This document shows positions 21,681 through 41,170 of a stretch of DNA of 43,788 nucleotides, in pieces. The notes under the pieces are model-generated. The model was not told where the DNA came from. It ran no database searches and was given only the letters and a program-made list of their open reading frames with translations. The position numbers and the translations under genes are program-made. The stretch covers positions 1 through 43,788 of the forward strand of contig CALJJR010000151.1 of NCBI GenBank assembly GCA_937973905.1, in the 5' to 3' direction. Each line of letters opens with the position of its first letter. Positions within the stretch are counted from its first letter, which is position 1. The stretch is from an uncultured Arenicella sp. GTDB lineage: Bacteria; Pseudomonadota; Gammaproteobacteria; Arenicellales; Arenicellaceae.

Positions 21681-23954
21681 CTACTCTGTCGTTCGGTAAA
21701 CGTTGTTTGATAAATGCGCAGTATCTCTCTTATCGCTGTACAGCTCCGAGATTTCGAGTTTAGGCGTGTCGATAAACTCATTATTTTTTATCTTAGTCAC
21801 TGGTTCGCCCACCGTGTGCAGCACTTTGACAGGCAAGCTGTCGCTAATCTTATTTCCGGCAACCTCTGTTACCTGAACGCCGTGCAAGAGCATCGAACTC
21901 TTGGATTTATTTCGCTTACCACCGCCAACATCTGTCAGGATCGAATCGCTTAGTTCAAAATGCGGCCCGAAGGTACTTTCGTCAGTACCACCACGATAAA
22001 AATCAACCAAGTCACCCGCCACCTTGTCAAACTGAGAACTGCGAATTGTCACGTACTCCGCGTTGTAGATTCCGTAGTCGTCGCTCTCTTTATCTAGGCT
22101 GAGAATAGCGCCAGTAACATTCGAAAATTTAGAATTGAGTATCTCAATGCGATCAGCGAAGGTACCCTTTGCTACGGTTAAGAAATTGAACGAATGATTG
22201 ATGTCTAAATCGACCACTTCACAGTTTTCAATGATCAATTCGTAATTTTCAAGCATCGAACGCCGTTGTGTTCGAATCACCGAGTTGCCCGCACTGTCCG
22301 GGGCTTCCGCACCTGAAATTTTAATGCCCTTGAGTTTTAAGTTACCGCCTTGCTGAATTTCGAATAAAGCACCGCGCTCAAAGAACAGTTCCACTTCTCC
22401 TTCATCAGACGTGGCTGCTAAAGTAACGGATTTAGTGAGACCCAGCATTCTTGAAACCGTATATCGACCCGCTGTAAGCGCTAATACATCACCATCAGAT
22501 GCTTCTTTTAGTGCGTCGGCAATCGTATCCAAGCCAGGCTCAACCTGAATCTTTTCGCCATGATCAAAGGTTGCCCGAGCGGCTGGTTTTGGATACCACG
22601 CCACACCAACCGCCTCTTTCGCAATTGGTTGGATATCTTTGTTAGCACCGACGCCATCTAGAGACGACTCCGCTACTGGATAAAGCAAACCATTCTCAGC
22701 GCGCTGCATATCAAAGGATTGATTGGTAAAACCATCTTCAAGCTGAAAGCTGGCTGCGCCGTTGATGGCATTATCTTTAAAGCTGATACCACTTACGTCA
22801 TCGTATACGGTGAATGGATCTTGCTTCACATCACGATAAATTAGATTCTTCTCAAAGGTCGAGCGAATAGGCACAGCCGAACGTTCGAAGTCACTACCAG
22901 CGGCCAATTGAATATGATCTGAATTAATGAGCGAGTTGTTTTCTACTAACGAATCTTCGACTTGGTGATAACGATTAATCGGCGAATTTGGAACGCCATT
23001 CATCACCACGAGAGCACCGCCAAAACGGTAGCCGGCCAAGCCTTCCATATAATTGTTGCGAATGGTCTGACGTTTATTAATCACACGAATCCCGCCGGTG
23101 TGATCGACACCATTGCCAAAAAAGACATTGCGTTCGATCAGAGTGTCGTTACCGTGCCTCATAGTGAGCGTGCCGCGAGATTCGAAAAACACGTTACCGA
23201 TAAACTTGTTTTTACCTGACTTACTGGAAATTATTTCAAGCTCACCGTCGCAACGATCGAAATAGTTGTTTTCAACCACCGTGAAGGAATCCGTCAATGA
23301 ATAGTGGCTGGTGCCAATTCTTAAAGTTTCGCCCCCATTGGAACCTAAAATTTGCCTTGGCCCAAAGTAGTTATGATCAATCCGGTGGTGATTATTTTGA
23401 CTTGCTTCGGTATTGAGTCGCACCGCCATGGTCACGCCTTTGGTGCTCTTACCTTCCAGATGGTTATGGTCGAAGCGATTGTTTCGGCCATACATCATTA
23501 CCCAATTTTCGTTCTCGAAACGCTCAGGGTTGTTGTACTCGTGAATCACGGTTTGCGTTATGCGCGAGTTATTCGCAAGCTCGGTTTTATTTTTTCTGAA
23601 CGCGATAACCGAACTGGTTGGCGTAAACCCGTTCTTGAAAACCAAACCAGACACCACCAAGTGCTCGCCAGCGAGACGAAGATTTGAGTTGCCACTCAAA
23701 ATGACTTTGCCCTTGGTTTGCGCCCGCAACTCGATCGGTTCTTCTGCAGTCCCGACTCCTTCGAACAGAATTTCGAAGTCATTCCAGACTCCGTTTTTAA
23801 GCTCTACTGTATCGCCAGGCTTAAGTTTACTGGCCACCTTTTGGTAAGCCACTTGATCTTTTACTCGATAAGTCGCTGCGTTCGACTCACTCGTTACTAC
23901 CAAGGCAAGGATAAGAACTAACAGTGGAATGGCGTTCATGTGATTGCTTTTCAT
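21681..23954 (-). CDS. Alginate lyase, polysaccharide lyase family 6 (two beta-helix domains)
   Basis: A 757-residue secreted enzyme that cleaves alginate by beta-elimination. The signal peptide is about residues 1-26 (ending SNA). Two parallel beta-helix domains cover roughly 28-440 and 480-750, the architecture of PL6 subfamily 1 lyases such as AlyGC. The catalytic region matches: Lys245 and Arg266 have the same 21-residue spacing as AlyGC Lys220 and Arg241, and Glu238/Glu240 fit its calcium-binding acids. NGGETLRIG at 206-214 is also typical. It is the first gene of the alginate operon and divergent from the GntR regulator. Chondroitinase B is the other activity in the family, but the neighbours favour alginate. 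Confidence 0.93.
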   Translation of the reverse strand: MKSNHMNAIPLLVLILALVVTSESNAATYRVKDQVAYQKVASKLKPGDTVELKNGVWNDFEILFEGVGTAEEPIELRAQTKGKVILSGNSNLRLAGEHLVVSGLVFKNGFTPTSSVIAFRKNKTELANNSRITQTVIHEYNNPERFENENWVMMYGRNNRFDHNHLEGKSTKGVTMAVRLNTEASQNNHHRIDHNYFGPRQILGSNGGETLRIGTSHYSLTDSFTVVENNYFDRCDGELEIISSKSGKNKFIGNVFFESRGTLTMRHGNDTLIERNVFFGNGVDHTGGIRVINKRQTIRNNYMEGLAGYRFGGALVVMNGVPNSPINRYHQVEDSLVENNSLINSDHIQLAAGSDFERSAVPIRSTFEKNLIYRDVKQDPFTVYDDVSGISFKDNAINGAASFQLEDGFTNQSFDMQRAENGLLYPVAESSLDGVGANKDIQPIAKEAVGVAWYPKPAARATFDHGEKIQVEPGLDTIADALKEASDGDVLALTAGRYTVSRMLGLTKSVTLAATSDEGEVELFFERGALFEIQQGGNLKLKGIKISGAEAPDSAGNSVIRTQRRSMLENYELIIENCEVVDLDINHSFNFLTVAKGTFADRIEILNSKFSNVTGAILSLDKESDDYGIYNAEYVTIRSSQFDKVAGDLVDFYRGGTDESTFGPHFELSDSILTDVGGGKRNKSKSSMLLHGVQVTEVAGNKISDSLPVKVLHTVGEPVTKIKNNEFIDTPKLEISELYSDKRDTAHLSNNVYRTTE

Positions 23955-24412: not shown

Positions 24413-24578
24413 TAACAATACACATTTCTTTCGTGAACCCACCTCCTAACTGCTTAAAAGCCTGCCCTGAAGGCGCTTTCAATCAATGGGCGGCAGGGCA
24501 GCAGCGGCAGGTTATCGAGTCAAACAAGGGCAATAGGCAAGCTCTCCAATACTGTGAATTCGCATAAAACGAGCGATT

Positions 24579-24593
24579 GATTGTATTACAATC
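24579..24593. promoter_or_regulatory. Probable GntR autoregulatory operator, site C
   Basis: GATTGTATTACAATC is a perfect 7-1-7 palindrome with the GTA-T-TAC core expected for FadR-subfamily regulators. It lies 52 bp before the chosen GntR start, fitting autorepression. Confidence 0.6.
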
Positions 24594-24645
24594 GGAAAAA
24601 GTTAAGATATACTCACTATTGCTTCAAAATTTCATAACTACTTTT

Positions 24646-25386
24646 ATGGCAAATAAAAAGCGACTGTATCTGACCGTTTTCAATAAAATCTCGACGCTGA
24701 TTCGCGAAGGCGAATTTCCGGTCGGCAGCCGCTTGCCCACAGAACGTGAATTGGCGGAGCGCTTCGAAGTCAGCCGACCAACCATAAGAGAGGCTATAAT
24801 CGCGCTGGAAGCCAAGGAAGAAGTCACGGTAAAACCGAGCTCGGGTGTCTACGTTCTAGGCAACAACCTGATCAACGATGACTTCAGCCATGAAATCAGC
24901 GCCTTCGAATTACTCGAGGCAAGGGTATTACTAGAGGGCGAAGCTGCAGCACTTGCTGCTAGAATGATTCAGCCCGATGAGGTTAAGGAGTTAGAAAAAG
25001 CCTTGCGCAAAATTGAACTGGAAGACGTGAAAGACACTTCTCCATCCGGTGCGGATCGACAGTTTCACACCATCATTGCCCAGGCCACACACAACAGAGT
25101 TATCGGCAAACAAATCAGTTTTCTTTGGGACCTACAAGAAAACCTCGGCCACATTAACAAGGCTCACAATGCGGTCTGTATTGAAGAAGATCGACGTAAG
25201 CGAATTGATGACCACGCGGCCATCTACCAAGCGATCGCCAACGGCGATGCCGGCAAAGCAAGAATTGCGATGCGCGAACACTTTTCTGACTTACTTGAAG
25301 CCATGCACGCCGCTTCTGAGCAGGAAGCAGTGGAAGCCGCCAAGAAAAAAGTCTCGAGAATGCGTGAGCGCTTTAAGATCGCCTAA
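24646..25386 (+). CDS. GntR family regulator, FadR subfamily (alginate/uronate)
   Basis: A 246-residue regulator when started at the ATG at 24646. A TTG at 24577 would add 23 residues but overlaps operator site C, so the ATG is preferred. The winged HTH is at about 8-70 (SRLPTERELAERFEVSRPTIREAI). The FCD effector domain runs from about 85 to 225, with likely metal/carboxylate residues in EARVLLEGEAA, the DRQFH segment and the HAAIYQAI segment. FCD-type GntR proteins of this kind (UxuR, ExuR, KdgR-like) sense uronates or KDG. It is divergent from the PL6 operon. Matching palindromes suggest control of that operon, itself and the TonB receptor at 32,788. Confidence 0.9.
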   Translation: MANKKRLYLTVFNKISTLIREGEFPVGSRLPTERELAERFEVSRPTIREAIIALEAKEEVTVKPSSGVYVLGNNLINDDFSHEISAFELLEARVLLEGEAAALAARMIQPDEVKELEKALRKIELEDVKDTSPSGADRQFHTIIAQATHNRVIGKQISFLWDLQENLGHINKAHNAVCIEEDRRKRIDDHAAIYQAIANGDAGKARIAMREHFSDLLEAMHAASEQEAVEAAKKKVSRMRERFKIA

Positions 25387-25491: not shown

Positions 25492-26835
25492 TTAGTGTAA
25501 GCCACCATCGGGGTTGAGCTTCATTTTTGTGTATCTGTTGAAGTGATAAATCTTTAGCAGCTCCTCTATTGGCATAATCGCAAATGCCCAAAACAAAGAA
25601 ACGTCGAAATAGAGAATAAGCAAGGCACATACTGGCAAGGATATTAGCCACTGCGCGGTGAAATTTAGTTTTAGCACGCGCTTACTCTCACCCAAAGCGC
25701 GCAACACATTCCCAGAGAGTGCGTTGTAGCCGCGCAGCACGGGCAGCAAGATATAGAGCGGCGCAATAACCGCCAAGGCCGTGTAGGTTTCAGGCAAAAC
25801 ACTTGGATAAACTAGGTGAATGAACCGACTAAGAACATAGAACATCAAGGCAACTAACACAGATAAAGCAATCGCGGTTTTTGTGCAGGTTGCGATGAAC
25901 GCATTGAGGTGCAAGATTTCACCACGCCCCAATGCTTGGCTAATATTAATTGCCGAAGCCTGCGCCCAAGCGGAAACGAACTGAGTACCAATTCGCAACC
26001 ACGGGAAAATCAGAGTGATTGCGACAAAGGAACTCAACTCAAGTTGCGCATACAGCAACTGATAAACCGAAGCGCCGATAAAAAGCACGAAGAAGTTGAC
26101 GGCGACAGGAAAAATCTCAGCACTCTGTGGTCGCAGCTCATCAATAAATGCCCGTTCGCGCGGATAGGCCAATGTAAGGCTTCGGTCCAAGTGCAAGCAA
26201 ACCCCAAAATAGACAGCCCGCAAAAACACGGCGACCAAGCTACCCCAAGCAGCACCCACCAAGCCAAGCCCGAGGAAACTTCCTACTCCGTAGATAAGAA
26301 CGTAGCTCAAGGTGATATTTGCTGGAATTTCAATCAAAAAGCCTTTTAGGGAAATCCAGGTATTGCCGCAACCGTTATAAAACGCGGTGCACACCTGCGT
26401 GAATGCGGTAAACAAAATGATGTATTTTGTGATCGCAAGATAAGACAGCACTTGCTTGCCTATCTCGGCATCAGTCGTAATGGCAGCCACCAGCGCCGGA
26501 CCGAAAGCACTCAAGATAAGAAAAAAAGATAGCGCAGTCAGCGAGTTTAGAAACAGGCCAACCCAAAAAACAATCACCAAGTCTTCTGAATTTTTGGAAC
26601 CGTAAGCCCTACCGACGAGCAATTGAATTCCATTTCCAAGCGCCAACAAGATGCCGAGTGCAAATGCCACTAGCGCGGTGGCTATGCCCATCGCCGCAAC
26701 CGGTATCTGGCCAAGCGGCGCAACCAACACGGTATCAATCATCAACATGGATTGAACCAGCAATACATTGATCGCCAGTGGCCAGGCCAAGGCGAGATTT
26801 TTCCTAAGGTCAGACCTGTAGGCCGTCGAACTCAT
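25492..26835 (-). CDS. MATE family efflux transporter
   Basis: A 447-residue inner-membrane protein with about 12 hydrophobic segments in two similar halves, the NorM/DinF-type MATE fold. The N terminus (LAWPLAINVLLVQSMLMIDTVLVAPLG) is the usual MATE opening helix. MATE proteins expel organic cations, drugs or other small molecules in exchange for Na+ or H+. It lies 75 bp after the PL17 lyase on the same strand, so it may be the last gene of that transcript. A role in alginate use is not obvious; export of a by-product or chance placement are both possible. Confidence 0.88.
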   Translation of the reverse strand: MSSTAYRSDLRKNLALAWPLAINVLLVQSMLMIDTVLVAPLGQIPVAAMGIATALVAFALGILLALGNGIQLLVGRAYGSKNSEDLVIVFWVGLFLNSLTALSFFLILSAFGPALVAAITTDAEIGKQVLSYLAITKYIILFTAFTQVCTAFYNGCGNTWISLKGFLIEIPANITLSYVLIYGVGSFLGLGLVGAAWGSLVAVFLRAVYFGVCLHLDRSLTLAYPRERAFIDELRPQSAEIFPVAVNFFVLFIGASVYQLLYAQLELSSFVAITLIFPWLRIGTQFVSAWAQASAINISQALGRGEILHLNAFIATCTKTAIALSVLVALMFYVLSRFIHLVYPSVLPETYTALAVIAPLYILLPVLRGYNALSGNVLRALGESKRVLKLNFTAQWLISLPVCALLILYFDVSLFWAFAIMPIEELLKIYHFNRYTKMKLNPDGGLH

Positions 26836-26910: not shown

Positions 26911-29166
26911 TCACTCGAAATACTGATAGGGACCCGTCCAGGAATAGCGTTGGCTCCCTAGCTGTAATTCATGTTGTGCGGTTGCACCAGCGTCGGCGTT
27001 CGAAACGATGAATACCGATTCCTGCCCATCTTTCTCTGTGATCGACACCGCGGTGTAACGATCATCGTCATGGATTACCGCAAGATTCATTATCCTACTC
27101 TTGGCATTGGTGGCGCTTTCGGTCACATAGCTGTAGTTACCATGTGGCTCAACCACCGAAGCAAACACTGTGTCTTTGGTGCGTTTGCGTCGAACAATAA
27201 ACGTTGGATCTTGACGTAAGTTAAATTCTGGGTCGTTAGCTCCGAGCTGGGCGAACAGAAGCTCATCTCTTTTGTCGACCGCTGAACTTAGAGTGTAAAA
27301 CCGCTGCTTACTCAACCAAGTTAATTGACTCGTGCTTGATGTTGGCTTTCCCTTTCCTTGCAGGAAGAGATGTTGATAACCATTGTTTGAACCCAACGGT
27401 GAGAGTTTCTTTGGACGGGTATAGTCGAAATTGGTATCAATTATTTGCCCAAGATAGTGATGCGGCAAATCGTACTGATTCGCGGAGCCAGAATTCACCT
27501 TTAGCACATCCAGCAAAAAGGGCTTTTCAAACCTCTCGGAATTAATCAGCGCCATGGTCCGCAACATGTCGGTACCAGGGTAAGCATTAGATTCACGTGC
27601 ACTGGCAACATGCACCTTCGGATTTGAATCGTCAAAAAAGTGGAGCTCGGAATGATGCTGGCTGCCGATTTCATACTTACCCTGAAAGTGTGAACTGGTA
27701 TTTTGCACAAGGGTATTGTGGGCAATAGTTTGTTTCACCCAGGTGCTATTTTCAGGTAAGTAGTTGCCGCCGCCCTTCTGCCCGATATTCACAAAGCGCG
27801 CCATTCCATAGTCTTGCAAAACCTCATCGCCTTTCTCGAACAATGAGTACGATAATTTATCGTAGTGCCCGTGACTCAAACCCTGCGACGTGTACTTAAA
27901 CAACACCTCGATATCCTGCGACGGCTCGCGCAATATCGCCAATCCCCCCTGTTTGCCATCAGGGCCATCTGCCAGCTTGACGGTGTTTTTATCAAAAGGC
28001 TTAGCCTGACTTTCAGCAATTGCCAAGGCAGTCGCTATCCCTGCATCATCAAGCAGCACCTGCCCCTGTTGTTCGGCAATACTCAACAGACGTGGGTCAC
28101 GACCCCCAACCAAGTAAGCAATGTTAACCGCTGTTACCACCTCATTAGCATGATAAGACATGCCCTTTTGTGCATCATTTAATGGAAAAAAATCACCGTT
28201 TGAATCAGACAGGTTAAGCAGCGCATCAACTGCTTTTAACAAGACTTCGCCCTGCTGCTCGTAGATCTTCAGGTCAGGTCGAGCATTGTGTAACCCCTGC
28301 GCGAAAATCAAAAAGGGAGACATCGCATAACGTTGGTAATACGGGCCTTCAGTGTAGTAACCGTCAGGAGAAAATGGTTCAGCTAGGTTCGCCAAAAAAC
28401 CCGCGTTCTGCCCTTCCACAAATAGAAAGCCGCCATCATTGTCTTTGGCTGACGAATCAATCTTGTCGAAAGGGATACCGTACAGAGCGCGCTCAACCAA
28501 TTCATCATCACCCATGACCAACCCAATCATGCCCACCGCTGCGGTGCCCCAAGTGCTGTGGTTGTGCACACGATTAAAAAATTGTGGGCTATCAATTGAA
28601 ATGTGATCGGCGAACGGGCGAAACAAGTTGTCTTCAAGGCGCTGCCGTTGTTCTGCGGTCAAATAGTCGTGAATTGCGTCATAAGCCTGGCTGGTATATA
28701 CAAGCCAGTTTGAGTCATTGAGGTTTTGCCAGAACAACTTACCTCGCGCATAAGATCGCTCCTTGGGATGCAACGGCAAATCTTTGTACATGGCCTCATA
28801 CTGAAGAAGCATATCACGAACATACTGCGCGTACTTTTCATCTTCTAGAATCTGGTATAGCACCCCCGCTTTTTGCATGACAAAAAAGTTTTTTTTGTGT
28901 CGTGCATGAGTGTAGCCGCCTGAAAAATCTTTCGGAATTGGGGTATCGATACCCATCTCGATCTCTGCATCCACCTCCGCCTTCACCTTGGCAAGAGTCT
29001 GGTCAAAAATTGGCACGCTTCCCAGTGCGGCACGAATCTTTTTAACGCCATCTTGGGTCAAGATTACTTTTGGGTGGTCGCTAGCCCTGGAATCAGCGGG
29101 CACAATCAACAGTGTCCAAAATAAAATCGATACGAATTGGATTAGGTTTTTCGTCATAGTCGGCAC
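26911..29166 (-). CDS. Exolytic oligoalginate lyase, polysaccharide lyase family 17
   Basis: A 751-residue enzyme that releases unsaturated monouronates from alginate oligomers. An N-terminal signal peptide (about 1-29) indicates the periplasm. The N-terminal alpha/alpha barrel is followed by a heparinase II/III-like beta domain (from about 390, with LSHGHYDKLSYSLF). PL17 features are Asn202-His203 (HNHSTWG) and YYTEGPYYQRYA at 270-281, with the tyrosines that serve in catalysis in Alg17C-type enzymes. Length agrees with PL17 subfamily 2. It lies 6 bp after the dienelactone-hydrolase-like gene. Together with the PL6 enzyme it gives complete alginate breakdown to monomers. Confidence 0.92.
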   Translation of the reverse strand: MPTMTKNLIQFVSILFWTLLIVPADSRASDHPKVILTQDGVKKIRAALGSVPIFDQTLAKVKAEVDAEIEMGIDTPIPKDFSGGYTHARHKKNFFVMQKAGVLYQILEDEKYAQYVRDMLLQYEAMYKDLPLHPKERSYARGKLFWQNLNDSNWLVYTSQAYDAIHDYLTAEQRQRLEDNLFRPFADHISIDSPQFFNRVHNHSTWGTAAVGMIGLVMGDDELVERALYGIPFDKIDSSAKDNDGGFLFVEGQNAGFLANLAEPFSPDGYYTEGPYYQRYAMSPFLIFAQGLHNARPDLKIYEQQGEVLLKAVDALLNLSDSNGDFFPLNDAQKGMSYHANEVVTAVNIAYLVGGRDPRLLSIAEQQGQVLLDDAGIATALAIAESQAKPFDKNTVKLADGPDGKQGGLAILREPSQDIEVLFKYTSQGLSHGHYDKLSYSLFEKGDEVLQDYGMARFVNIGQKGGGNYLPENSTWVKQTIAHNTLVQNTSSHFQGKYEIGSQHHSELHFFDDSNPKVHVASARESNAYPGTDMLRTMALINSERFEKPFLLDVLKVNSGSANQYDLPHHYLGQIIDTNFDYTRPKKLSPLGSNNGYQHLFLQGKGKPTSSTSQLTWLSKQRFYTLSSAVDKRDELLFAQLGANDPEFNLRQDPTFIVRRKRTKDTVFASVVEPHGNYSYVTESATNAKSRIMNLAVIHDDDRYTAVSITEKDGQESVFIVSNADAGATAQHELQLGSQRYSWTGPYQYFE

Positions 29167-29172
29167 GGCCTC

Positions 29173-30063
29173 TTAGTTAACCGTTGAAAGATGTTTGTTA
29201 AAAAATGCCACCATCCGGTCCCAGGCCAGTTGTGCGGCTGTTTGGTCGTAACGTGGCGTTGAATAGTTGTGAAACCCATGGCGCGTGCCCGCGTAAGTGT
29301 GCATTTCATACTCTACTCCAGCCGCCTTGAGCGCAGTTTCATACTCGGCCTTCATGGCATTAACGCGGTCATCGTGCTCAGCATAATGAACCTGAATCGC
29401 GGCCTTGATCTGCGGCACTTTTTCTGTGGCGGCGGCGCTTCCATAAAACGGTGCGCCAGCACTCAGCTCGTCACCCATTTCGGTCGCTAGAAAGTTGGTA
29501 GTACCACCGCCCCAGCAAAAACCGGTGGCGCCGAGCTTGCCATTGGAAAGCTTATGCGATTTAACAAAGCGAGCACTATTCACCATATCTTGCCTTAACT
29601 CACTCTGGTCAAGCGTGCGCTGCATACTTCGGCCGTCATCGTCATTGCCAGGATAGCCGCCGATTGGAGCTAAGCCATCTGGCGCCAAGGCGAGGAACCC
29701 AGCTACCGCGAACCGCCTCGCCACATCTTTAACGTAGGGGTTTAAACCACGATTTTCGTGCATCACCAACACAGCAGGAAACGGCCCTTCACCGACTGGC
29801 GCAACTAAGTACCCTCGCATTTCACCAGACGTGCCGCCCGGAGATGAATAGTCTATCCAGTTGGCCTTGATGCCATCATCGGTGAACTGAATCTCTTGTG
29901 CTTCAACATAGTTTGGGATCAAAGCTTCGGCCATAGCGAGGGCAGACACACCAGCAATGGATAATTTGCTTGCTCGAGACATAAATTCACGCCGATCAAT
30001 ATACCCATGGCAATATTCATCGTAGAGTTCAAATACCTGATCATCGATTTCGTGCTGTTGCAT
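29173..30063 (-). CDS. Dienelactone hydrolase family protein with Tat-like N terminus
   Basis: A 296-residue alpha/beta hydrolase when started at the ATG at 30063, which has an AGGTG ribosome-binding site; a start at 30117 would add 18 unlike residues. The catalytic triad is Cys183 (GFCWGG), Asp231 or 232 (EHDDRVN) and His262 (RHGF); Glu103 (HENRG) is also conserved. A DRREFM motif at 23-28 followed by a hydrophobic stretch resembles a twin-arginine signal placed after an unusual 22-residue leader, as in YghX-like proteins. It lies between the Nramp-like transporter and the PL17 lyase. Hydrolysis of a lactone or ester of a uronate is possible, but the substrate is unknown. Confidence 0.88.
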   Translation of the reverse strand: MQQHEIDDQVFELYDEYCHGYIDRREFMSRASKLSIAGVSALAMAEALIPNYVEAQEIQFTDDGIKANWIDYSSPGGTSGEMRGYLVAPVGEGPFPAVLVMHENRGLNPYVKDVARRFAVAGFLALAPDGLAPIGGYPGNDDDGRSMQRTLDQSELRQDMVNSARFVKSHKLSNGKLGATGFCWGGGTTNFLATEMGDELSAGAPFYGSAAATEKVPQIKAAIQVHYAEHDDRVNAMKAEYETALKAAGVEYEMHTYAGTRHGFHNYSTPRYDQTAAQLAWDRMVAFFNKHLSTVN

Positions 30064-30142
30064 AAGAACACCTAAAGGATTGTTAGAAGTTAATAGCAGC
30101 TTATCCGCTTGGCTCAATCAAGTATTGATAAGCACGCCTAAC

Positions 30143-31408
30143 TTAGATTAGTTGCATTACTCCCTGTATCCCAATGACAGAGGTGAAGACTGAGAATGCC
30201 AATATAACAGCGAGACCTAGGTTCGCCAGCCAGTTATTTTTGTGTTCTCCCATCAACGATTCTTGATTAGTGAGATAAAAAATACAGGCAACGGTCAGTG
30301 GCAAAATTACCGCGTTGAATGCTTGTGAGACTATCATCACCGACAGCGGTCTGGCGGCAAAAATAGGCACGACCAATCCAAGCAGAGAAATGAGTAAAAC
30401 CAGAATACGATATTTGGGCAGCGTCATATCGCGTGGGGTACCCGAGTAATCACAAAGCAACCACGGCAACATTAATACGTTGGGGAACTGGGAAGACACC
30501 CCGGCCGCGACCAAACCCAAAGCAAAGATTGATACCGCAAAACTCCCAGCCAGAGGTTGCAATAACTCAATCATCTGAGAAGCCTTAGCTAAGGTTGCCC
30601 CTTCTACATGCAGAGTACCAGCAGCGGCAGCCATGATGGCCGCGCTTATAACAAACATGAGCGCTACCGAAACCGCAGCATCATTGCGCTGATTTTTATA
30701 ATCCTTCAGTGACCACCCCGCTTCTTTAACCAAGGTGGTGCGAATAATAAAGAGCCCTGAGAACACAGTGGTACCCACCATCGAGGCGATTATTAATAGC
30801 GGGCCCTTGCTCGACCCTTCAGAGACTTTGGGAATGCTTGGCACCAAGCCGTTCAGAATATCTGCGGGTGGCGGCATCAAGATGAAAAAGTTGATCAAAA
30901 AGCAGGCCGACATAATCGCTACGATCACCGCCAGACTGCGTTCAAAAAATTGCGTCCTGCCGTTCCAAAAAATAAAGTAGACCAGACTGACAAAAAACGC
31001 AGCAAAGTAAACCGGCGCGACTCCGCCCTCGACGAATGATTTCGACCATTCGTGGCAAATATCAGCAACGATTCCCATTACGCCCATCACGCTGCCACAC
31101 ACTCCGGCAGTCAAAGCAACAATAAAGAAAATCCCTACGGCAGGATGAATGTGTCTTCGAAACGCCTGTAATGCGGTTTCACCAGTCACTAAGGTATAGC
31201 GCCCGTAAAGATTAATCATGAAAAAGGTGCATAAACAGGAAGCGACGATAGTCCACAGCAGCGACATTCCATAATCTGCACCAGCTTTGGCCATGGCCGT
31301 CACACTGCCGGTACCGATATTGAAGCCCAATAAAAATATCCCCGGCAGAAACATGGCCAGTGCACGAGACCATTTTTGTTTAAGTGATGTGTTGTTCTGA
31401 GCTTGCAT
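30143..31408 (-). CDS. Nramp-fold transporter lacking the metal-binding motifs
   Basis: A 421-residue membrane protein with about 11 hydrophobic segments and clear Nramp (SLC11) likeness: the first helix ends AGADYGMSLLW like AGAQYGYSLLW of metal transporters. The metal-binding motif DPGN of helix 1 is replaced by NIGTGS, and the helix 6 motif MPHN is replaced by FSGL. It is therefore unlikely to carry Mn2+ or Fe2+ in the usual way. It lies 9 bp after uxuA and 79 bp before the dienelactone-hydrolase-like gene, so it probably moves a sugar acid or related anion. That role is an inference from missing motifs and context. Confidence 0.8.
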   Translation of the reverse strand: MQAQNNTSLKQKWSRALAMFLPGIFLLGFNIGTGSVTAMAKAGADYGMSLLWTIVASCLCTFFMINLYGRYTLVTGETALQAFRRHIHPAVGIFFIVALTAGVCGSVMGVMGIVADICHEWSKSFVEGGVAPVYFAAFFVSLVYFIFWNGRTQFFERSLAVIVAIMSACFLINFFILMPPPADILNGLVPSIPKVSEGSSKGPLLIIASMVGTTVFSGLFIIRTTLVKEAGWSLKDYKNQRNDAAVSVALMFVISAAIMAAAAGTLHVEGATLAKASQMIELLQPLAGSFAVSIFALGLVAAGVSSQFPNVLMLPWLLCDYSGTPRDMTLPKYRILVLLISLLGLVVPIFAARPLSVMIVSQAFNAVILPLTVACIFYLTNQESLMGEHKNNWLANLGLAVILAFSVFTSVIGIQGVMQLI

Positions 31409-31417
31409 AATATTTGC

Positions 31418-32629
31418 CTAATTTAGCTCGACGTTATCGGCAGTAAGTGCCCTGATAACACCGCGAATTTCTGCCAAGCCTTTGAGGCGGCCAATCCCTG
31501 AGTAGCCGGGATTTACGGTTTTATTAATGTCATCCATCATCTGATGGCCATGGTCTGGGCGAATATAAATACCTGCTTCATGTGCTTGATCTTGGCTTCT
31601 CCGCCGCTGCTCATTTAACAATTCACGAATCACCTGCACCATATCAATATCACTATCGAGATGAGCAGCCTCATAAAAAGAACGCGGTTCTAAGGGGTCG
31701 CGCGTAACACCACGCAGATGGGAGAAATGAATTCTTGGGCCGAATTGTCTGGCCATTGCTGGCAAATCGTTGTCCGGGCGACTGCCATAGGTTCCAACGC
31801 AAAGAGTGATTCCGTTCGAAGGGCTCGGCAAAGCATCAAACAAAAGTTCTAGATCTGATGCGGTACAAATGATGCGCGGTAAACCCAACATATCACGCGG
31901 AGGGTCATCGGGATGAATAGCCAGCTTTACGCCAACTGCTTCGGCTCGCGGTAACACTTTGGCGAGAAACGCGAACAAGTTTTTGCGCAGAGTATCCTTG
32001 GTCATTCCCTGGTAGTTAGCGAGTGCTGCTCGAAACTCATCGAGGGTGTAGCTGTCTGTCATCTTGCCTGGTAGACCGGCGATGATGTTGTCGCTTAGTT
32101 CAGCACGTTCCGCTGCTGACATGCCGTCGAAACATTGCTTGGCGGCTTGCGTTTCCATCGCGGAGTAATCGGCGCCCGCATTTTCACGTTGCAAAATAAA
32201 CAGGTCAAATGCGGCAAATTTTTGCTGGTCAAACCCTAATGCGTAAGCCCCACTTGGGAGCTGCAAATTCAGATCTGTGCGAGTCCAGTCAATCACTGGC
32301 ATAAAGTTATAGCAAATAACCTTGACCCCACACTGCGCCAAATTCTCCATTGAAACGGCCCAGTTCTCGACGTACTTTTCGTGCCCAGGCCGCGCTAGTT
32401 TAATGTCTTCGTGTACTGGGATACTCTCAACCACTGACCAAGTTAAACGGCTCATTCCCGGTGCGCATTCTTCTATGCGCGCTCGGTGTTCACGGATTGA
32501 CTGGAGAGTCCAAACTTCGCCAGCGGGAACTTCGTGAAGAGCACTAACAACGTCTGTTGCACCAGTTTGCCGAATATCGTCAATTGTTACCGGGTCATTG
32601 GGTCCAAACCATCGCCAAGATTCGTTCAT
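31418..32629 (-). CDS. uxuA: Mannonate dehydratase
   Basis: A 403-residue TIM-barrel enzyme that dehydrates D-mannonate to 2-keto-3-deoxygluconate in glucuronate catabolism. The N-terminal WRWFGPNDPVTIDDIRQTGA, the metal site in AIHPDDPP, the motif CVGTYGSRPDND and HLRGVTRDP are UxuA hallmarks. Length agrees with the E. coli protein (394 residues). It is the first gene of the uxuA-Nramp-like-DLH-PL17-MATE run, directly downstream of the TonB receptor's terminator. The fructuronate reductase UxuB and isomerase UxaC are not in the window. Its product feeds the same KdgK as the alginate genes. Confidence 0.95.
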   Translation of the reverse strand: MNESWRWFGPNDPVTIDDIRQTGATDVVSALHEVPAGEVWTLQSIREHRARIEECAPGMSRLTWSVVESIPVHEDIKLARPGHEKYVENWAVSMENLAQCGVKVICYNFMPVIDWTRTDLNLQLPSGAYALGFDQQKFAAFDLFILQRENAGADYSAMETQAAKQCFDGMSAAERAELSDNIIAGLPGKMTDSYTLDEFRAALANYQGMTKDTLRKNLFAFLAKVLPRAEAVGVKLAIHPDDPPRDMLGLPRIICTASDLELLFDALPSPSNGITLCVGTYGSRPDNDLPAMARQFGPRIHFSHLRGVTRDPLEPRSFYEAAHLDSDIDMVQVIRELLNEQRRRSQDQAHEAGIYIRPDHGHQMMDDINKTVNPGYSGIGRLKGLAEIRGVIRALTADNVELN

Positions 32630-32695: not shown

Positions 32696-32732
32696 AAAAA
32701 AATAAGGCACCAATGATTGCCATTGGTGCCTT
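32696..32732 (-). terminator. Intrinsic terminator of the TonB receptor gene
   Basis: A perfect 12-bp stem (AAGGCACCAATG and its complement) with a 5-nt loop at 32704-32732 is followed on the minus strand by a U-rich run (32696-32703). It lies 56 bp after the receptor's stop codon. It separates the receptor from the uxuA operon, which must then have its own promoter in the 75 bp before uxuA. Confidence 0.88.
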
Positions 32733-32787
32733 AAGTTAACGACTTATTATTATTTTAATAATGCTTCGTCACACTGCTTAGAAAATC

Positions 32788-35745
32788 CTAGAAACGATAG
32801 CTAGCACCAATGGTGATGCGTCGATCTGGAATTCCAACGAAACACAGTGGACCAGTCTCACTCACGCAACGCTGTTCAATACCTTCTTCAGTGAGGTTTA
32901 CAAACTCAACCCCAAGATTCAGGTTGTCGTTTACGTCGTAATTGATACTGGCATTCAACTGGCCTCTGTCGAGTGTATTAACCGGGAAGCTGAAAGTACT
33001 ACTACCACTGGTGTTAGCGCCGCCACCAAAGTCTTGGGTGCGGAAGCCTTCACGCCATGTGTAACGCGCTCGTGCAGAGATGCCATACTTTTCATAAAAC
33101 ACAGTAAAGTTATAAGCATCTTCAGAGAAGTCGAGTAGTCCACGTGGAATGCTGACATCACCAAGAACTGTTAGACCACGACCAGAAGTTGTATCAACAA
33201 CCGAACCGCCTTTGAAGTCTTGGCTTGTGTAGTTGGCAATTACGCCAAATCCAGACGCCCAGCCCAAGCTATCTTCAAAGCTTGAAAGATCATATTGAAA
33301 GGCAAGCTCAATGCCAGATTGAGTCGTTGTATCTGGGTCGTTACCCGGCCGGGTAAAATCCACACATAGACCAAGCTGATTGGGATCACCCAACTGATTT
33401 GGTACTACGATCGGGTTAAAGATACCGCCACCTGGGCAGCTTGGGTCGGTCTCACGCGCAAACCCAGCCGTTGTGTTGCCAGGAATCAATAAGGCGCCTT
33501 CAAAGTCTTGGCCGAAAATATTGGTACGGTCTTTTTTAAAGTAGCCAATACTCGCCACGGCAGCAGGAGCAAAATACCACTCAGCCGCGATGTCGAACGA
33601 CTCCACTTCTTCAGGCTCAAGGCCAGGATTACCCAATGAAACGGCGGCGTTCTCGCTCTCATTAAAAGTAAAACCAGTATTTAGATTATTGAAGTTAGGC
33701 CGTCTGATATCTTCGCCGTAGCCTAAACGAATAACCATGTCATCACGCACTTGGGCAACGATGTTCAAACGAGGCAGCAAGAAGTCATAATCACCTCTAG
33801 TTGATTGCAATGATCTAACACCATTGCCATCAGCAGGGCCGAAAGCGATTGAGTTAACTTCTGTCTCAATATAGCGCACACCCAGATTGCCGCGGAAAAT
33901 ACCGTACTCAAAGTTCGCTTGTGCGTACAAAGCATCGGTTTCTTCTCTCACGTCAAAGAACGCATTCTGATCATCTTGAAGGTCGAGGATATCGGGGCTC
34001 TCTGGATCATGCGCAATAACCGCGTTCTGCAAAATAGCAATAGTGCCATCAGGATCAGAGAAAGCACGATCTGGATCTACAAGCAGGAAGTTATCAACAA
34101 ACAAACTTCTGCCATCGCCCGAACCATAGTTGTTTGGCCCAGCAACAAGAAGATCAGCAAACAAAGCGCCATTCGGGCTGTCCACGATTCGGCTGAATCC
34201 ACCGATACGATCATTAATACGGTTAAATCTGCTTGATGATTCGTTGGTGCGGAAGCCAAAATCCAATGACGTAATGCCGCCCCAATCGAGGTCGTAAGAG
34301 AAGTCTGCGCGCAACGCATCTTCTTCGTTATTCGTCGTGTTGCGACCAACTTCAACCTGGTCTAGAACAACATTGTTTGGATTCAAAAGATCACCCGGAG
34401 CCGGTGAGAACGGTGAATTGAAATTCACATCCCAAGCCAAAGTGCCGCCTGACAAGTCATAGATGAAAGGCACGCAGTTATCATTACTTGTGCCGTCCAG
34501 AGGACAATTCGGATTAATAAAGTTCAGAGTTGTGCTCAAGTTAGGATTGAAAGTATCTGACGTAGTCGTCGCATACTCAAAACGTGAACTCAGTCTGTCA
34601 TTAATTTGCCACTCGGCACCCAAGCTGAAAATTTCGCTATCAGTGATTCGGGCACCAGTGTCACTTGAGAACCGCAAGTTCGGATCATCGTCATCATTGG
34701 CCAAATCTGGCTCGAGCGTACCAGCGAGAGCGGCTGGGAAAACAGCTCGATCACCAACCCCGAAATTCACAGTTTCAAACGCGGTAGGAATGCTGATCTG
34801 ACGCAAAGAACTCACACCTGACGCTTGGATTCGATATGAATCTTGGCTGCGCTCTTGTTCATTGATGATGGCGTCAAACGAGAACTTAAGATTGTCATTG
34901 GGTGCCCACTCGAAAGTAGTCGCCAAATTAGTTGTTTCGTAGTCGTCGTTCTCTTGCTCCTGAACTAAAAACTGAATACCGAGGAATTCTGACGGGCTGG
35001 CACCTGGAGGCGAAGCTACGTTGTCCCGGTCGGTACGAGGGCGGAATGACACCGCTTCTTGCTCTGTGTAACTACCGCTGATTACGATACCGAACTCACC
35101 GTTGTCGGTTGTCCAGTTGTCTCCCCATGCAGCCGATACCCTTGGTTGTAAGCTTTCAGTACTTAAGCTGCTGTCTTCACCTTGAATTCGGATAGATCCC
35201 AACGTTTCGGTCAGCTCAAGTGGGCGGATAGTTCTGAGGTTAATCGTACCGCCCACAGAACCTTCAATAGTTTTGGCTTCTGGAGCTTTAACAACTTCCA
35301 CAGCTGAGATAATCGAAGCATTGACGTCTTCGAAATCAATACCGCTTCGGCCCGAGCCAGAACCAACAGTGGAGACACCATTAATTTCTACTCGGTTAGC
35401 ACCAGTACCACGGATTTGTACGCCGGTACCCACACCCGCTCTTCGAGTAATTTGGATACCAGTAATATTTTCCAGGACTTCAGCTAGGTTTTGGTCCGGT
35501 AATTTACCGATGTCTTCAGCAATGATTACCTCTTTCAAATTATCCGAATTTCGCTTTTCTGCGAGCGCATTCTGCAGCGAGCCGCGAATACCTTGCACAA
35601 CGATTTCTTCTAATTCTGTACCTTCGGACTGTGCATACGTCACACCGGACGTGGTGGCCAATCCAAACGCAGATGTAGCTACCAGCACGCTTCTAGTAAG
35701 CGATCGCCGTAGCAACGCCGCATCTCCTCTCAACACTGTTTTCAT
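32788..35745 (-). CDS. TonB-dependent receptor, carbohydrate type (TIGR01782-like)
   Basis: A 985-residue outer-membrane receptor when started at the ATG at 35745 (GAGAG-rich leader); a start at 35796 would add 17 residues before the positively charged signal peptide. The signal peptide ends near residue 38 (TYAQ), followed by the TonB box EEIVVQGIRGSL and a plug domain with EDIGKLPDQNLAEVLENITGIQI, typical of the large receptors in polysaccharide loci of Xanthomonas, Caulobacter and alteromonads. The barrel ends in ASYRF. A perfect GTA-A-TAC palindrome lies 114 bp upstream, like those around the GntR gene, so it probably takes up alginate oligosaccharides. It ends at a strong terminator. Confidence 0.94.
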   Translation of the reverse strand: MKTVLRGDAALLRRSLTRSVLVATSAFGLATTSGVTYAQSEGTELEEIVVQGIRGSLQNALAEKRNSDNLKEVIIAEDIGKLPDQNLAEVLENITGIQITRRAGVGTGVQIRGTGANRVEINGVSTVGSGSGRSGIDFEDVNASIISAVEVVKAPEAKTIEGSVGGTINLRTIRPLELTETLGSIRIQGEDSSLSTESLQPRVSAAWGDNWTTDNGEFGIVISGSYTEQEAVSFRPRTDRDNVASPPGASPSEFLGIQFLVQEQENDDYETTNLATTFEWAPNDNLKFSFDAIINEQERSQDSYRIQASGVSSLRQISIPTAFETVNFGVGDRAVFPAALAGTLEPDLANDDDDPNLRFSSDTGARITDSEIFSLGAEWQINDRLSSRFEYATTTSDTFNPNLSTTLNFINPNCPLDGTSNDNCVPFIYDLSGGTLAWDVNFNSPFSPAPGDLLNPNNVVLDQVEVGRNTTNNEEDALRADFSYDLDWGGITSLDFGFRTNESSSRFNRINDRIGGFSRIVDSPNGALFADLLVAGPNNYGSGDGRSLFVDNFLLVDPDRAFSDPDGTIAILQNAVIAHDPESPDILDLQDDQNAFFDVREETDALYAQANFEYGIFRGNLGVRYIETEVNSIAFGPADGNGVRSLQSTRGDYDFLLPRLNIVAQVRDDMVIRLGYGEDIRRPNFNNLNTGFTFNESENAAVSLGNPGLEPEEVESFDIAAEWYFAPAAVASIGYFKKDRTNIFGQDFEGALLIPGNTTAGFARETDPSCPGGGIFNPIVVPNQLGDPNQLGLCVDFTRPGNDPDTTTQSGIELAFQYDLSSFEDSLGWASGFGVIANYTSQDFKGGSVVDTTSGRGLTVLGDVSIPRGLLDFSEDAYNFTVFYEKYGISARARYTWREGFRTQDFGGGANTSGSSTFSFPVNTLDRGQLNASINYDVNDNLNLGVEFVNLTEEGIEQRCVSETGPLCFVGIPDRRITIGASYRF

Positions 35746-36146
35746 CTTGTTTTCTCTCGTGATTGTTTTAAAAACATAGTCACATTTCTGTAACACTGCT
35801 TGATTCTTACAAAATATTCTGCCATATGCAATAACATTGGCATAACATTTCAGACTATATTGGTAATACCAATTACAACTTTAATTATCAGATAAATCAT
35901 TATTCAAACCGTTGATCACCATATGCTTACCACTTAATAGGCGTCAAAATTGCCCGATATCATTGAATCTGCGCGGATTTACAAACGTTTCTAACATTGC
36001 ATGACAATATATTATTACCAATAAATTGATTCAATTTCGACAACAGCAGCACATGACCATGATCTGCACGCTGCAAGAAGGCCAAAAAAATCCACCTTGG
36101 TTTCTTTGATATAGCCGTGAAATCCGTCACCACCCGTTGAATTGTT
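35746..36146. promoter_or_regulatory. TonB receptor promoter region, non-coding
   Basis: About 400 bp without a convincing gene between the FAH-family gene's stop and the receptor start. It is AT-rich. On the minus strand a TATAGT (35854-35859) abuts the palindrome at 35859-35873 and could be the -10 box. A half site with TTACCAAT lies near 36014-36021. A 65-residue open frame at 35960-36157 has no family features. Confidence 0.5.
35859..35873. promoter_or_regulatory. Probable GntR (FadR-type) operator, site D
   Basis: ATTGGTAATACCAAT is a perfect 7-1-7 palindrome, 114 bp before the TonB receptor start. It shares the GTA-N-TAC core with sites A-C near the GntR gene and resembles ExuR/UxuR-type operators. 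It touches a putative -10 box, fitting repression. Confidence 0.7.
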
Positions 36147-36971
36147 CTAAGCAGCATCCACCATCTCCAACTCTATTTCACCGTGACCGGCAAAGCTCAC
36201 CTGAGCAGTCGAACCAATGCTTGCTTCATGAACACCGGTAATAGCGCCGGTAGAAACAAGAAGGCCCTCGGGGATTGGATGATTCATTGCACGCAATTGC
36301 ATGATTAGGAACAACACAGCACCTAACGGCCCGTCGAGGCCAGCAGCCGTGGTGCTCTCTCCTACGCACTGACCATTAATAGTTGTAGACACTTTGATCT
36401 GCGCTAGTGAACTAGAACTCCATTCATTGATCTCGTTGCCAACGACAAGGCCATGATTATTGCCAAAGTCGCTGATAATCGCCGCCGGGCCATAGTCATT
36501 GATATCAGGGACTGGACTCGAAGCAACCTCGATGCCAATAAAGCATCGGTGAATTACGTCTGCAACGCTGCCGGGTGTAGCAGCCTCAATATCGACCTGT
36601 GATACATCCCCCAACTCTAGAATAAACTCGGGTTCGATGGCCGCAAAACCATCACGGAATACGGGCATCTGGATGGGCCCATTAGCCGGCAGTTTGGCAA
36701 TTTGGCTGCTAAATATCGGGCCGGCAAGGCGCTCAGCGCGAAAGGCTTCTCGGAACATCGTTGGCACACCGCCAACTTTCCAACCTGCTACCTTGTCAGG
36801 CCACGCCGCGATGGAAAAATGTTGAAGAATATAGGCATCATCAAGAGTGTTTGGGACTCTCCCTGGGAACTCCTTGAGAGCTGATTTCGCTGAACGAGCC
36901 TTGCGTAATGCCATGGAGACCTCCTCCAAGTCACTATCTAAAGACCGATGTTGAGCCAACTCTAATGCCAT
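36147..36971 (-). CDS. FAH superfamily enzyme, 2-keto-4-pentenoate hydratase-like
   Basis: A 274-residue protein of the fumarylacetoacetate hydrolase superfamily, closest in pattern to 2-oxopent-4-enoate hydratase (MhpD/XylJ type). The fold's metal-site acids are visible in EPEFILELG around 113-121 and in the IGIEVASS segment around 144-151. The central block LDGPLGAVLFLIMQL and the C-terminal LVSTGAITGVHEA are typical. In a uronate locus it more likely acts on a 2-keto-3-deoxy or related sugar acid than on an aromatic ring product. A CCGGT palindrome upstream (37050-37063) links it to the LacI regulator. The exact reaction is unknown. Confidence 0.85.
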   Translation of the reverse strand: MALELAQHRSLDSDLEEVSMALRKARSAKSALKEFPGRVPNTLDDAYILQHFSIAAWPDKVAGWKVGGVPTMFREAFRAERLAGPIFSSQIAKLPANGPIQMPVFRDGFAAIEPEFILELGDVSQVDIEAATPGSVADVIHRCFIGIEVASSPVPDINDYGPAAIISDFGNNHGLVVGNEINEWSSSSLAQIKVSTTINGQCVGESTTAAGLDGPLGAVLFLIMQLRAMNHPIPEGLLVSTGAITGVHEASIGSTAQVSFAGHGEIELEMVDAA

Positions 36972-37049
36972 TTTGCAGTGCCGTGTCCCATAGTTCAGGT
37001 GCTTTCGAGGTGGCGTTTACCACCAGAACAGTAACACTCTAAATCATAA

Positions 37050-37063
37050 TGCCCCCGGTGGCA
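37050..37063. promoter_or_regulatory. Probable LacI-family operator before the FAH-family gene
   Basis: TGCCCCCGGTGGCA is a near-palindrome (six of seven arm positions match) with the CCGGT centre shared with the site at 43058-43081. It lies about 80 bp before the FAH-family start, in the gap after the LacI gene. Confidence 0.5.
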
Positions 37064-37099
37064 ATAAATTATTTAGTTTGATGGTCTGAGTCACTTTGT

Positions 37100-38194
37100 T
37101 TAATTTTCGTGCGGAGGGGGGCCTACCGATTCACGAATAACCAGCCACGGTTCCGTTTCATCCTGACTCGCGTCACCGCCCTTGTTTCTTCGCGACAACA
37201 AGCGCGTCGCCGCTAACCGCCCGATTTCCTGAGTCGGAGAATGAATGGTAGTGAGGCGCGGCCAGACGCTAGTGGCAATATGGAAATCATCAAAGCCAAT
37301 CACAGAAAGATCGTCGGGCACACGCAGGCCACGAATCCGCACCGCCTGTAAAACGCCAGCCGCCATTTCGTCGTTGGCCGCGAATACGGCTGTAGGTCGT
37401 ACTCGCAAAGACAATAAACGTTCGGTTGCTCCCACCCCTGACTCAAACGAGTAATCGCCTTCAAATATATGCTGAGGCCTAATTTCGAGGCCCGCTTGTG
37501 CCAATCCTTCACGAAAACCATCTAAGCGCTCCTGCGAAGAGCGAAAAGTCGGCGGGCCCGCAATGTAAGCAATACGTTGATGACCAAGCTCGGCGAAGTA
37601 GTTTGCCGCGCTAATGCCGCCCAGCCGGTCGTTGGACACGATCATTCGGTGAGGCTCGTCCAGAGCAACCGAGGCCACACGGACATATTCACTGCCCGTG
37701 GCCCGAATCATTGCGGCCAACCGGTCGTCTTCCGATGCCGACGGCGTTAAAACTACGCCGTAAAGCTTTTGTCGCTCTACAAAGCTGCGTGCCTTCTCTA
37801 TAAAGTTAGGGTCGGATCGGTCGCATCGGTGCACTGCTAGTTCGAACTCGTTATCAACCAGTGCTTCTTGGATGCCCTCAAGGATATTGACCACATATTG
37901 AGGGTTGGGATTGTCGTAAATTAAGCCAATAAGAAATGAGTGGCGGAAAGCCAAACCACGCGCTTGCGTATCAGGTTCGAAACCCAAGATCGTGACGATT
38001 TCGCTTACTTGCTTGCGGGTTTCTTCCCCCACCAATGTCGATCCATTGATTACCCGCGAAACAGTGCGCTTCGATACTTGAGCAAATCGGGCCACATCGT
38101 TAATCGTGGGCTTTTTATTATCGGGAAGTGCATCAAGCCAGCTCCGGATCGTATCTTCTAGATCGTCCGGGAGAACGGGTGTTTTCTTGCGCAT
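37100..38194 (-). CDS. LacI family transcriptional regulator
   Basis: A 364-residue repressor. The HTH is at 30-51 (TINDVARFAQVSKRTVSRVING), preceded by an unusual 29-residue charged N-terminal extension; no better internal start is seen. A periplasmic-binding-protein-like effector domain follows (about 85-345, LIGLIYDNPNPQYVVNILEG). It lies upstream of the FAH-family gene on the same strand and divergent from the TRAP transporter genes. CCGGT-centred palindromes before the FAH-family gene and between the beta-helix lipoprotein and kduI are likely targets. It probably senses a uronate or KDG-type metabolite. Confidence 0.92.
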   Translation of the reverse strand: MRKKTPVLPDDLEDTIRSWLDALPDNKKPTINDVARFAQVSKRTVSRVINGSTLVGEETRKQVSEIVTILGFEPDTQARGLAFRHSFLIGLIYDNPNPQYVVNILEGIQEALVDNEFELAVHRCDRSDPNFIEKARSFVERQKLYGVVLTPSASEDDRLAAMIRATGSEYVRVASVALDEPHRMIVSNDRLGGISAANYFAELGHQRIAYIAGPPTFRSSQERLDGFREGLAQAGLEIRPQHIFEGDYSFESGVGATERLLSLRVRPTAVFAANDEMAAGVLQAVRIRGLRVPDDLSVIGFDDFHIATSVWPRLTTIHSPTQEIGRLAATRLLSRRNKGGDASQDETEPWLVIRESVGPPPHEN

Positions 38195-38388
38195 ACTGTG
38201 GCTGAGTTTTTAGTTTTTGGAGCACTCTGTAATCGAACTATAGCATTTTAGTCTTTGCTGCAATCACGGCGATTATCAGGGGATCAAGTTTGAAACAGTC
38301 GTGCGTTATTTCGACCGCGAATACCATAAACTCTGCAAAATTTACTTTCTGGCGTATACTTTTGCAAAATCAATCGACCATTTAAGCC
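38195..38388. promoter_or_regulatory. Divergent LacI/TRAP transporter promoter region
   Basis: A 194-bp region. A perfect palindrome TTTTGCAAAA lies at 38360-38369, 19 bp before the dctP start, and a half copy (CTGCAAAA) near 38333-38340, about three helical turns away. These could be operators for the TRAP genes; no CCGGT site is present here. Confidence 0.4.
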
Positions 38389-39387
38389 ATGCACGATAAC
38401 CCAGTAACTCGCCGAACTGCTCTCAAAGCCGGTCTTTCAACAGCACTTATTGCCACCGGTGGCTGTTCTCGTTCAGATCAGCGAGTGCTGCGTTCATCAG
38501 ACACGCACCCAAGCGGCTACCCGACAGTTGAAGCGGTTCGGCATATGTCAGAACAGTTATCCATACGTAGCGATGGTCGTTTACAGTTGAAAGTCTACCC
38601 GGGCGCTGTGCTTGGAGATGAAAAAGGCACGCTCGAAATCACCGTATTCGGCGGCCTTGATTTCAATCGGGTCAATCTAGCGCCATTGAACTCAATCGCT
38701 GAAGAAACCTTGGTGCCTAGCTTGCCATTTATGTTTCGCTCCATCGCCCACATGCGAGCCGCGATGGATGGCGCACCGGGGCAAGCAATTTTAAAAGCAC
38801 TCGAACCGCACGGATTAATCGGACTCAGCTTTTACGACAGCGGGGCGCGCAGCTTTTACACCACCAGCCGCTTTATTCGAGAACCGGCGGATTTGAAAGG
38901 CTTGAAAATACGCGTTCAAAACTCTGACTTATATGTTTCGATGGTCGAGGCTTTGGGCGGTGATGCAACGCCCATGGCGTTTGGTGAGGTCTACCAAGGC
39001 TTACTGCAGGGTGTGGTTGATGGCGCAGAGAACAACTGGCCCAGCTACGAGAGCACACGCCACTTCGAGGCCGCGCAATTCTATAGCTTAACTCGGCATG
39101 TTATGGCGCCTGAAGTTCTCCTAATGTCTGCTCGCAGCTGGCGCAAGCTCTCGGAAGACGATCAGCAGCTAATTCGTACCTGCGCTACAGAAAGCGTGCA
39201 AGTCATGCGAGATCTATGGGACGCCCGCGTTGAGAAATCGCGACAAACTGTGATGGCTGCCGGGAACGAAGTTTATGAGCCAGACCTTGTTCCATTTCAA
39301 AAACAAGTAGGTCCGGTTTGGGATCGTTATTTAAGTACCCCTGCTCTGCGTGCATTAGCAGACCAAATACAAGCACTGGAGGCATAA
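38389..39387 (+). CDS. dctP: TRAP transporter substrate-binding protein, DctP family (uronate type)
   Basis: A 332-residue periplasmic binding protein of a tripartite ATP-independent transporter. The N terminus has both a twin-arginine motif (TRRTALK, Arg8-Arg9) and a lipobox with Cys26 (ATGGC), so it is probably a Tat-exported lipoprotein. Arg175 in LKGLKIRVQN is the conserved carboxylate-binding arginine. The DGAENNWPSY motif at 211-220 is typical of TRAP proteins that bind hexuronates and related sugar acids. It is followed by the small and large membrane subunits. Together with kduI and uxuA nearby this supports uronate uptake. Confidence 0.92.
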   Translation: MHDNPVTRRTALKAGLSTALIATGGCSRSDQRVLRSSDTHPSGYPTVEAVRHMSEQLSIRSDGRLQLKVYPGAVLGDEKGTLEITVFGGLDFNRVNLAPLNSIAEETLVPSLPFMFRSIAHMRAAMDGAPGQAILKALEPHGLIGLSFYDSGARSFYTTSRFIREPADLKGLKIRVQNSDLYVSMVEALGGDATPMAFGEVYQGLLQGVVDGAENNWPSYESTRHFEAAQFYSLTRHVMAPEVLLMSARSWRKLSEDDQQLIRTCATESVQVMRDLWDARVEKSRQTVMAAGNEVYEPDLVPFQKQVGPVWDRYLSTPALRALADQIQALEA

Positions 39388-39390
39388 ACG

Positions 39391-41147: not shown

Positions 41148-41170
41148 TTGCTCAGCTGATGCACCGATGC

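Follow-up and report, generated by a model that had tools for sequence, protein, structure and literature searches.

Positions 30143-31408 of the window (by which we mean the whole 43,788-nucleotide stretch of DNA analyzed here, from an uncultured Arenicella sp.) encode an Nramp-related protein immediately behind uxuA, and raise the question of what such a protein carries in a uronate operon once both metal-coordinating motifs of its superfamily have been replaced. A first-pass annotation had proposed a sugar-acid transporter built on the Nramp fold; genomic context and the altered site, as read from sequence, support that proposal, whereas transport itself we infer. On this evidence the protein is probably an inner-membrane permease importing a hexuronate or a close sugar acid.

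Genomic context of the Nramp-related gene

The features of the window that bear on this question are the following.

18131-19063, minus strand: KDG kinase (NF052444, 352 bits; cut-off 400)
19116-19868, minus strand: SDR reductase, DehR-like by position as it adjoins KdgK (PF13561)
19915-21216, minus strand: MFS hexuronate/aldonate-type transporter (TIGR00893, subfamily match below cut-off)
21681-23954, minus strand: PL6-type lyase, chondroitinase B/alginate lyase fold (PF14592, 394 bits)
24577-25386, plus strand: GntR/FCD regulator, nearest to the UxuR and ExuR models
25492-26835, minus strand: MATE-family transporter, end of the gene run (PF01554)
26911-29166, minus strand: PL17-type oligoalginate lyase (NF042990, 682 bits, below cut-off; PF07940, PF05426)
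29173-30117, minus strand: YghX-type dienelactone-hydrolase-like protein (NF041440, 368 bits, below the cut-off of 460; PF01738)
30143-31408, minus strand: Nramp-related gene (GTGS clade), 421 aa, ATG at 31408; proposed hexuronate permease
31418-32629, minus strand: uxuA, encoding D-mannonate dehydratase and heading the operon (TIGR00695, 494.7 bits; cut-off 199.6)
32703-32733, minus strand: strong intrinsic-terminator-like hairpin, 14-bp stem plus T tract
32788-35796, minus strand: TonB-dependent receptor (TIGR01782, 502 bits)
43233-43787, plus strand: KduI-type uronate isomerase, truncated where the window stops (NF002091, 176 bits over 180 aa; PF04962)

The hairpin stands between the TonB-dependent receptor gene and uxuA and suggests that uxuA begins its own transcription unit, so that uxuA, the Nramp-related gene, the YghX-type gene and the PL17 lyase gene, perhaps with the MATE gene, read as a single unit. 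The 9-bp gap to the end of uxuA given in the first-pass annotation was confirmed, as was its placement of the Nramp-related gene in line with the PL17 lyase, on the same strand and with the one YghX-type gene between. More broadly, the part of the window between 18 and 43.8 kb makes up a uronate-polymer region: it holds the PL6 lyase, KDG kinase, SDR and MFS genes and the UxuR/ExuR-like regulator together with TRAP and KduI genes. Three further transporter types (MFS, TRAP and MATE) near the Nramp-related gene may make its product dispensable, which counts against the reading of that product as a permease.

Some features of this neighborhood recur or extend beyond the operon. A second, adjacent uronate cluster (36147-43787) comprises a LacI regulator, a TRAP transporter, a hyaluronan-lyase-like protein (weak match to the BT3328 model) and KduI. 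The YghX-type hydrolase gene lies immediately ahead of PL17 in this window and in locus L025 (84% identity), and a MATE-family transporter occurs in three uronate loci, namely the window, L023 and L052.

An Nramp fold with a replaced metal site

Assignment to the Nramp superfamily rests on a full-length match to PF01566 (204 bits, E = 4.9e-60, cut-off 29.8), in which residues 36-392 cover profile positions 1-356 of 357; the canonical MntH model of NCBIfam gave 101 bits, far under its cut-off of 430. The protein has an Nramp-type LeuT fold as predicted by AlphaFold2 (pLDDT 82.5, pTM 0.82), and the best PDB matches to the model were all Nramps (Z 31-42), including DraNramp (6d91; Z 41.8, 385 residues at 2.7 Å) and EleNRMT (Z 40). 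KimA, the auxin carriers LAX3/AUX1 and APC amino-acid transporters followed with lower scores. A common fold is not proof of a common function. The substrate site was compared position by position, by gapless alignment to BfraNramp from B. fragilis (10ky).

31304-31321, minus strand: TM1 motif NIGTGS, residues 30-35
30752-30763, minus strand: TM6 motif FSGL, residues 216-219, counterpart of MPH-N/x

The counterpart of DPGN is GTGS (residues 32-35) and that of MPH is F216-S217-G218, with G32 and S35 in place of the ligands Asp and Asn, and F216 and G218 in place of Met and His. The predicted TM3 helix (89-115) contains no acidic residue in either the sequence or the model helix, and the TM1 helix is broken at residues 31-32 in the model. 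All 84 members of the clade described below share G32, T33, G34, S35, F216, G218 and R223, and S217 is found in 83; T37, Q307, N310, D320 and Q362 are also invariant among them. Where canonical and PxpT-type proteins have their second TM6 His, the clade has Arg223. The gapless alignment and the 84/84 conservation rule out chance differences and an annotation or motif-alignment error. What the first-pass annotation had read from the letters thus stands: both motifs are replaced, while the fold and the AGADYGMSLLW helix (residues 42-52) are kept, and the structure prediction that it had called for returns an Nramp fold devoid of the metal ligands. The loss of all known central metal ligands, through substitutions fixed across the clade, counts for the permease reading, and the protein is very probably not a canonical metal carrier.

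A distinct clade shared across phyla

The GTGS clade comprises 84 members at 69-81% identity from at least three phyla. The genome scan contributed 80 relatives in this identity range, from Gamma- and Alphaproteobacteria, Bacteroidota, Planctomycetota and Lentisphaerales. The clade is rare, since within the class 3 of 369 genomes have a match, and its scattered spread fits transfer between lineages without proving it. Together with a sister subfamily of 38% identity (motifs GTGS and MAAATFLSR) it forms a branch far from the other sampled Nramps, separated by a long branch (length 3.5) whose support is 100%. The sister subfamily adjoins PL6 in all three of its loci, which counts for the permease reading; used as a query, the sister protein retrieved no new member from 369 genomes of the class. 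The sister loci (L093, L121 and L122) carry PL6, DehR-like SDR and TonB genes, and the same genomes also hold the first subfamily.

Conserved linkage to mannonate-branch genes

Taking UxuA, UxuB, ManD or a PMI- or AGE-type isomerase as the mannonate branch, we found such a gene within 8 kb for 45 of the 51 clade members with full flanks and for 0 of 24 other Nramps, the latter drawn as control loci from genome searches and not matched for taxon (Fisher p = 2e-14); the survey of homologues with the same motif changes envisaged in the first-pass annotation accordingly places them in uronate loci. UxuA is encoded at 50 of the 80 relatives' loci, a PMI-like protein at 28, PL17 at 24, PL6 at 17, UxuB at 13 and ManD at 9, with DehR-like SDR genes at 31, an ExuT-like MFS at 15 and an AGE-type isomerase at 7. 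Co-directional neighbors within 150 bp were UxuA (27), PMI-like (14), UxuB (7), AGE (7) and a 6-phosphogluconate-phosphatase-like HAD protein (4 loci), and the gaps to co-directional adjacent partners were mostly below 60 bases. In the Woeseiaceae loci L013, L023, L036 and L052, this HAD gene lies at most 50 bp after the Nramp gene. Galacturonate was rejected as a substrate, UxaA being encoded at 0 and UxaC at 1 of the 80 loci.

On the Nramp tree UxuA switches position at least 26 times and the isomerase switches type 17 times, which indicates that the linkage has been re-made and not merely inherited. Recent inheritance of one block was ruled out on the same grounds, UxuA lying variously upstream, downstream, divergent or distant, and the division of the UxuA copies at clade loci into two identity classes also speaks against it. 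In Alteromonadales, uxuA-PMI-uxuB-nramp operons occur at loci such as L007, L018, L028 and L058, and the Nramp is the sole permease in the gene run of each.

The association extends to whole genomes: UxuA was present in 19 of 22 clade-bearing genomes versus 5 of 227 genomes of the class without the clade (p = 4e-21), a rough comparison in that the clade-bearing genomes cover several classes and the others a single one. Across the class, UxuA was found in 7 of 229 genomes. Among the three exceptions without UxuA, G302 has ManD; from G301 and G307 ManD is missing as well, which counts against the permease reading. Three congeneric genomes (G452, G560 and G652; 99% complete) hold neither UxuA nor a GTGS Nramp, as if the operon were gained or lost as a unit.

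Candidate isomerase partners and the proposed route to KDG

A distant class I PMI-like protein (at L049:6689-7789 and 27 other loci) adjoins the Nramp gene or shares its operon. It retains Q97, H99, E134 and H255 of E. coli ManA, which we take to be zinc ligands, and occurs with UxuA and UxuB where UxaC is often missing: UxaC was not found in 9 of 20 genomes, among them those of L016 and L058. In genomes with a PMI-like copy, the best copy mostly adjoins the Nramp gene. These features of sequence and context make the PMI-like protein a candidate D-mannuronate (or glucuronate) isomerase, and if it is a uronate isomerase, the uxuA-PMI-uxuB-nramp operon would comprise import, isomerization, reduction and dehydration to KDG. 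At seven loci (L012, L015, L017, L020, L026, L030 and L067) the next gene downstream of the Nramp gene encodes an AGE-type isomerase, as if this stood in for the PMI-like protein. Both are members of mannose isomerase families and would here act on a uronate, and it is on this account that D-mannuronate is indicated; GH115 next to one locus (L048) leaves D-glucuronate a possibility. The route from uronate to mannonate appears incomplete in the source genome, a metagenome-assembled genome 89% complete in which no UxaC, PMI-like protein, AGE or PF08125-type UxuB was found, and this counts against the permease reading.

The same loci could instead point to another of their products as the cargo, whether DEH, an oligouronate, D-mannonate or D-fructuronate, or D-mannose, a possibility that we consider unlikely. 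The DehR-like SDR genes at 31 of 80 loci, the many PL6 and PL17 genes and the linkage of the sister subfamily to PL6 and DehR-like genes would suit DEH or oligouronates, the origin of the PMI- and AGE-type isomerases in mannose isomerase families would suit mannose, and G301 and G307 lack mannonate dehydratases. Conversion of DEH to KDG, however, needs neither UxuA nor an aldose-ketose isomerase, the most frequent of the adjacent partners, and mannose leaves the presence of UxuA in 19 of 22 genomes unexplained.

Proposed function and mechanism

If the protein is a hexuronate permease, its most likely substrate is D-mannuronate, with D-glucuronate second, although D-mannuronate in particular is put forward tentatively. 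More tentative still is the extension to the clade as a whole, whose members may be dedicated D-mannuronate permeases partnered by PMI- or AGE-type D-mannuronate isomerases in place of UxaC. For the window protein we infer not only the substrate but also the direction, binding mode and coupling ion.

After cleavage by a lyase such as the PL17 enzyme, the reducing end carries a saturated uronate, and D-mannuronate freed in this way from alginate oligomers would be the imported hexuronate. The permease would move it over the inner membrane by LeuT-type alternating access, the small, glycine-rich TM1/TM6 break (GTGS, FSG) in place of the metal site giving room for a sugar acid. In APC amino-acid transporters a GSG motif binds the carboxylate; the GTG motif is similar to it, and the GTGS/FSG break may perhaps hold the carboxylate of the sugar acid in the same way. 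D-fructuronate would then be formed by an aldose-ketose isomerase, which in many relatives is PMI-like or AGE-like, a reductase would convert D-fructuronate to D-mannonate, and UxuA would dehydrate D-mannonate to KDG, which KdgK would pass to the Entner-Doudoroff route.

UxuA needs Mn2+ or Fe2+, and as it is a metalloenzyme, a carrier still moving metal ions and feeding them to UxuA and the PMI-like isomerase would also pair the two genes, in keeping with the 27 cases in which UxuA is the co-directional neighbor. Such a role is nonetheless quite unlikely: Asp, Asn, Met, His and the TM3 acid are all missing from the site, the metal-independent AGE-type isomerases are also among the partners, the sister subfamily adjoins PL6 without UxuA, and UxuA stands beside none of the 24 other Nramps. 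Two relatives lend metal supply some weight, namely EleNRMT, an Nramp-related protein that carries Mg2+ with an altered motif (PMC12873925), and YcsG, a G-motif relative of PxpT reported as an importer of Mn2+ that raises cell Mn2+ (PMC10448178); EleNRMT, however, retains an Asp at the site (DAGG), which the GTGS clade does not.

EIN2 exemplifies an Nramp domain that has lost transport, but that the window protein is an accessory or non-transporting one, a sensor or degenerate carrier riding along with the operon, is highly improbable in view of its full length, the 69-81% identity across phyla, the invariant polar and charged TM residues and its place as sole permease in several operons.

Relation to known Nramp-type and uronate transporters

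Canonical Nramp/MntH proteins (DraNramp, BfraNramp and EcMntH) have the same fold and length as the window protein, which shares about 20% identity with them and has no DPGN, MPH or TM3 acid; among the loci sampled they never lie beside uronate genes. EleNRMT, also Nramp-related with an altered metal site, is 18% identical to the window protein and has DAGG in TM1 and APW in TM6 where the latter has Gly and FSG, and the two are thus of different types. The ExuT (MFS), GntP and TRAP hexuronate permeases have in common with the clade the proposed substrate class and the operon partners uxuA and uxuB, but their folds are unrelated to that of Nramp.

The literature covered, which was incomplete and hence gives no proof of absence, yielded a single relevant paper (PMC6431674) on Nramp in connection with alginate, glucuronate, mannonate or uronates generally, and none linking the Nramp fold to uronate transport; matches of the PMC12445098 type concerned mouse Nramp genotype and were set aside. 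In that paper a figure legend draws the alginolytic systems of Alteromonas sp. 76-1 with an "Nramp, metal-ion transporter" (PMC6431674), placing an Nramp gene in an alginate locus as here but taking it as a metal transporter, and the legend discusses no Nramp motif or substrate. The uronate link of Nramp-related proteins therefore appears unreported. The novelty that the first-pass annotation saw for the superfamily holds to that extent, and is narrowed by the organic-acid precedent of PxpT/YcsG and 5-oxoproline (PMC13274462).

Nramp-related proteins without DPGN are a recognized, paraphyletic and mostly uncharacterized group that includes the G-motif groups (PMC12873925), and the window protein, having the Nramp fold without the TM1/TM6 substrate motif, belongs among them. 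Most lack an assigned substrate and readily receive a metal-transporter annotation; the GTGS clade points to a specific substrate class, and if the permease reading is true, MntH-like metal-transporter annotations of these genes are wrong. It would also fill a transport gap, and probably an isomerase gap too, in the use of alginate and other uronates by marine bacteria.

An organic-acid role has precedent in the Nramp-related PxpT of C. glutamicum, which is essential for growth on 5-oxoproline, a plasmid copy complementing its deletion (PMC13274462). Like the GTGS clade, PxpT/YcsG ("G-motif 3") are Nramp-related, lack DPGN and MPH and belong to a catabolic operon. They differ in having GPGT and VPY where the clade has GTGS and FSG, in retaining His at the position of the clade's Arg223, and in having another operon and another substrate class than those proposed here; the clade is a separate branch, and the window's own operon has no pxp gene. 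The clade is relevant to the question of whether organic acids or metals were the original cargo of the Nramp fold: if it consists of D-mannuronate permeases, then together with PxpT it would make organic-acid transport general to the Nramp-related proteins with G motifs, and would mark metal transport as derived in the canonical branch. At L102 and L117, GPGT/VPYN Nramp-related genes adjoin genes of the LamB_YcsF and carboxyltransferase types, which make up the 5-oxoprolinase operon pxpABC.
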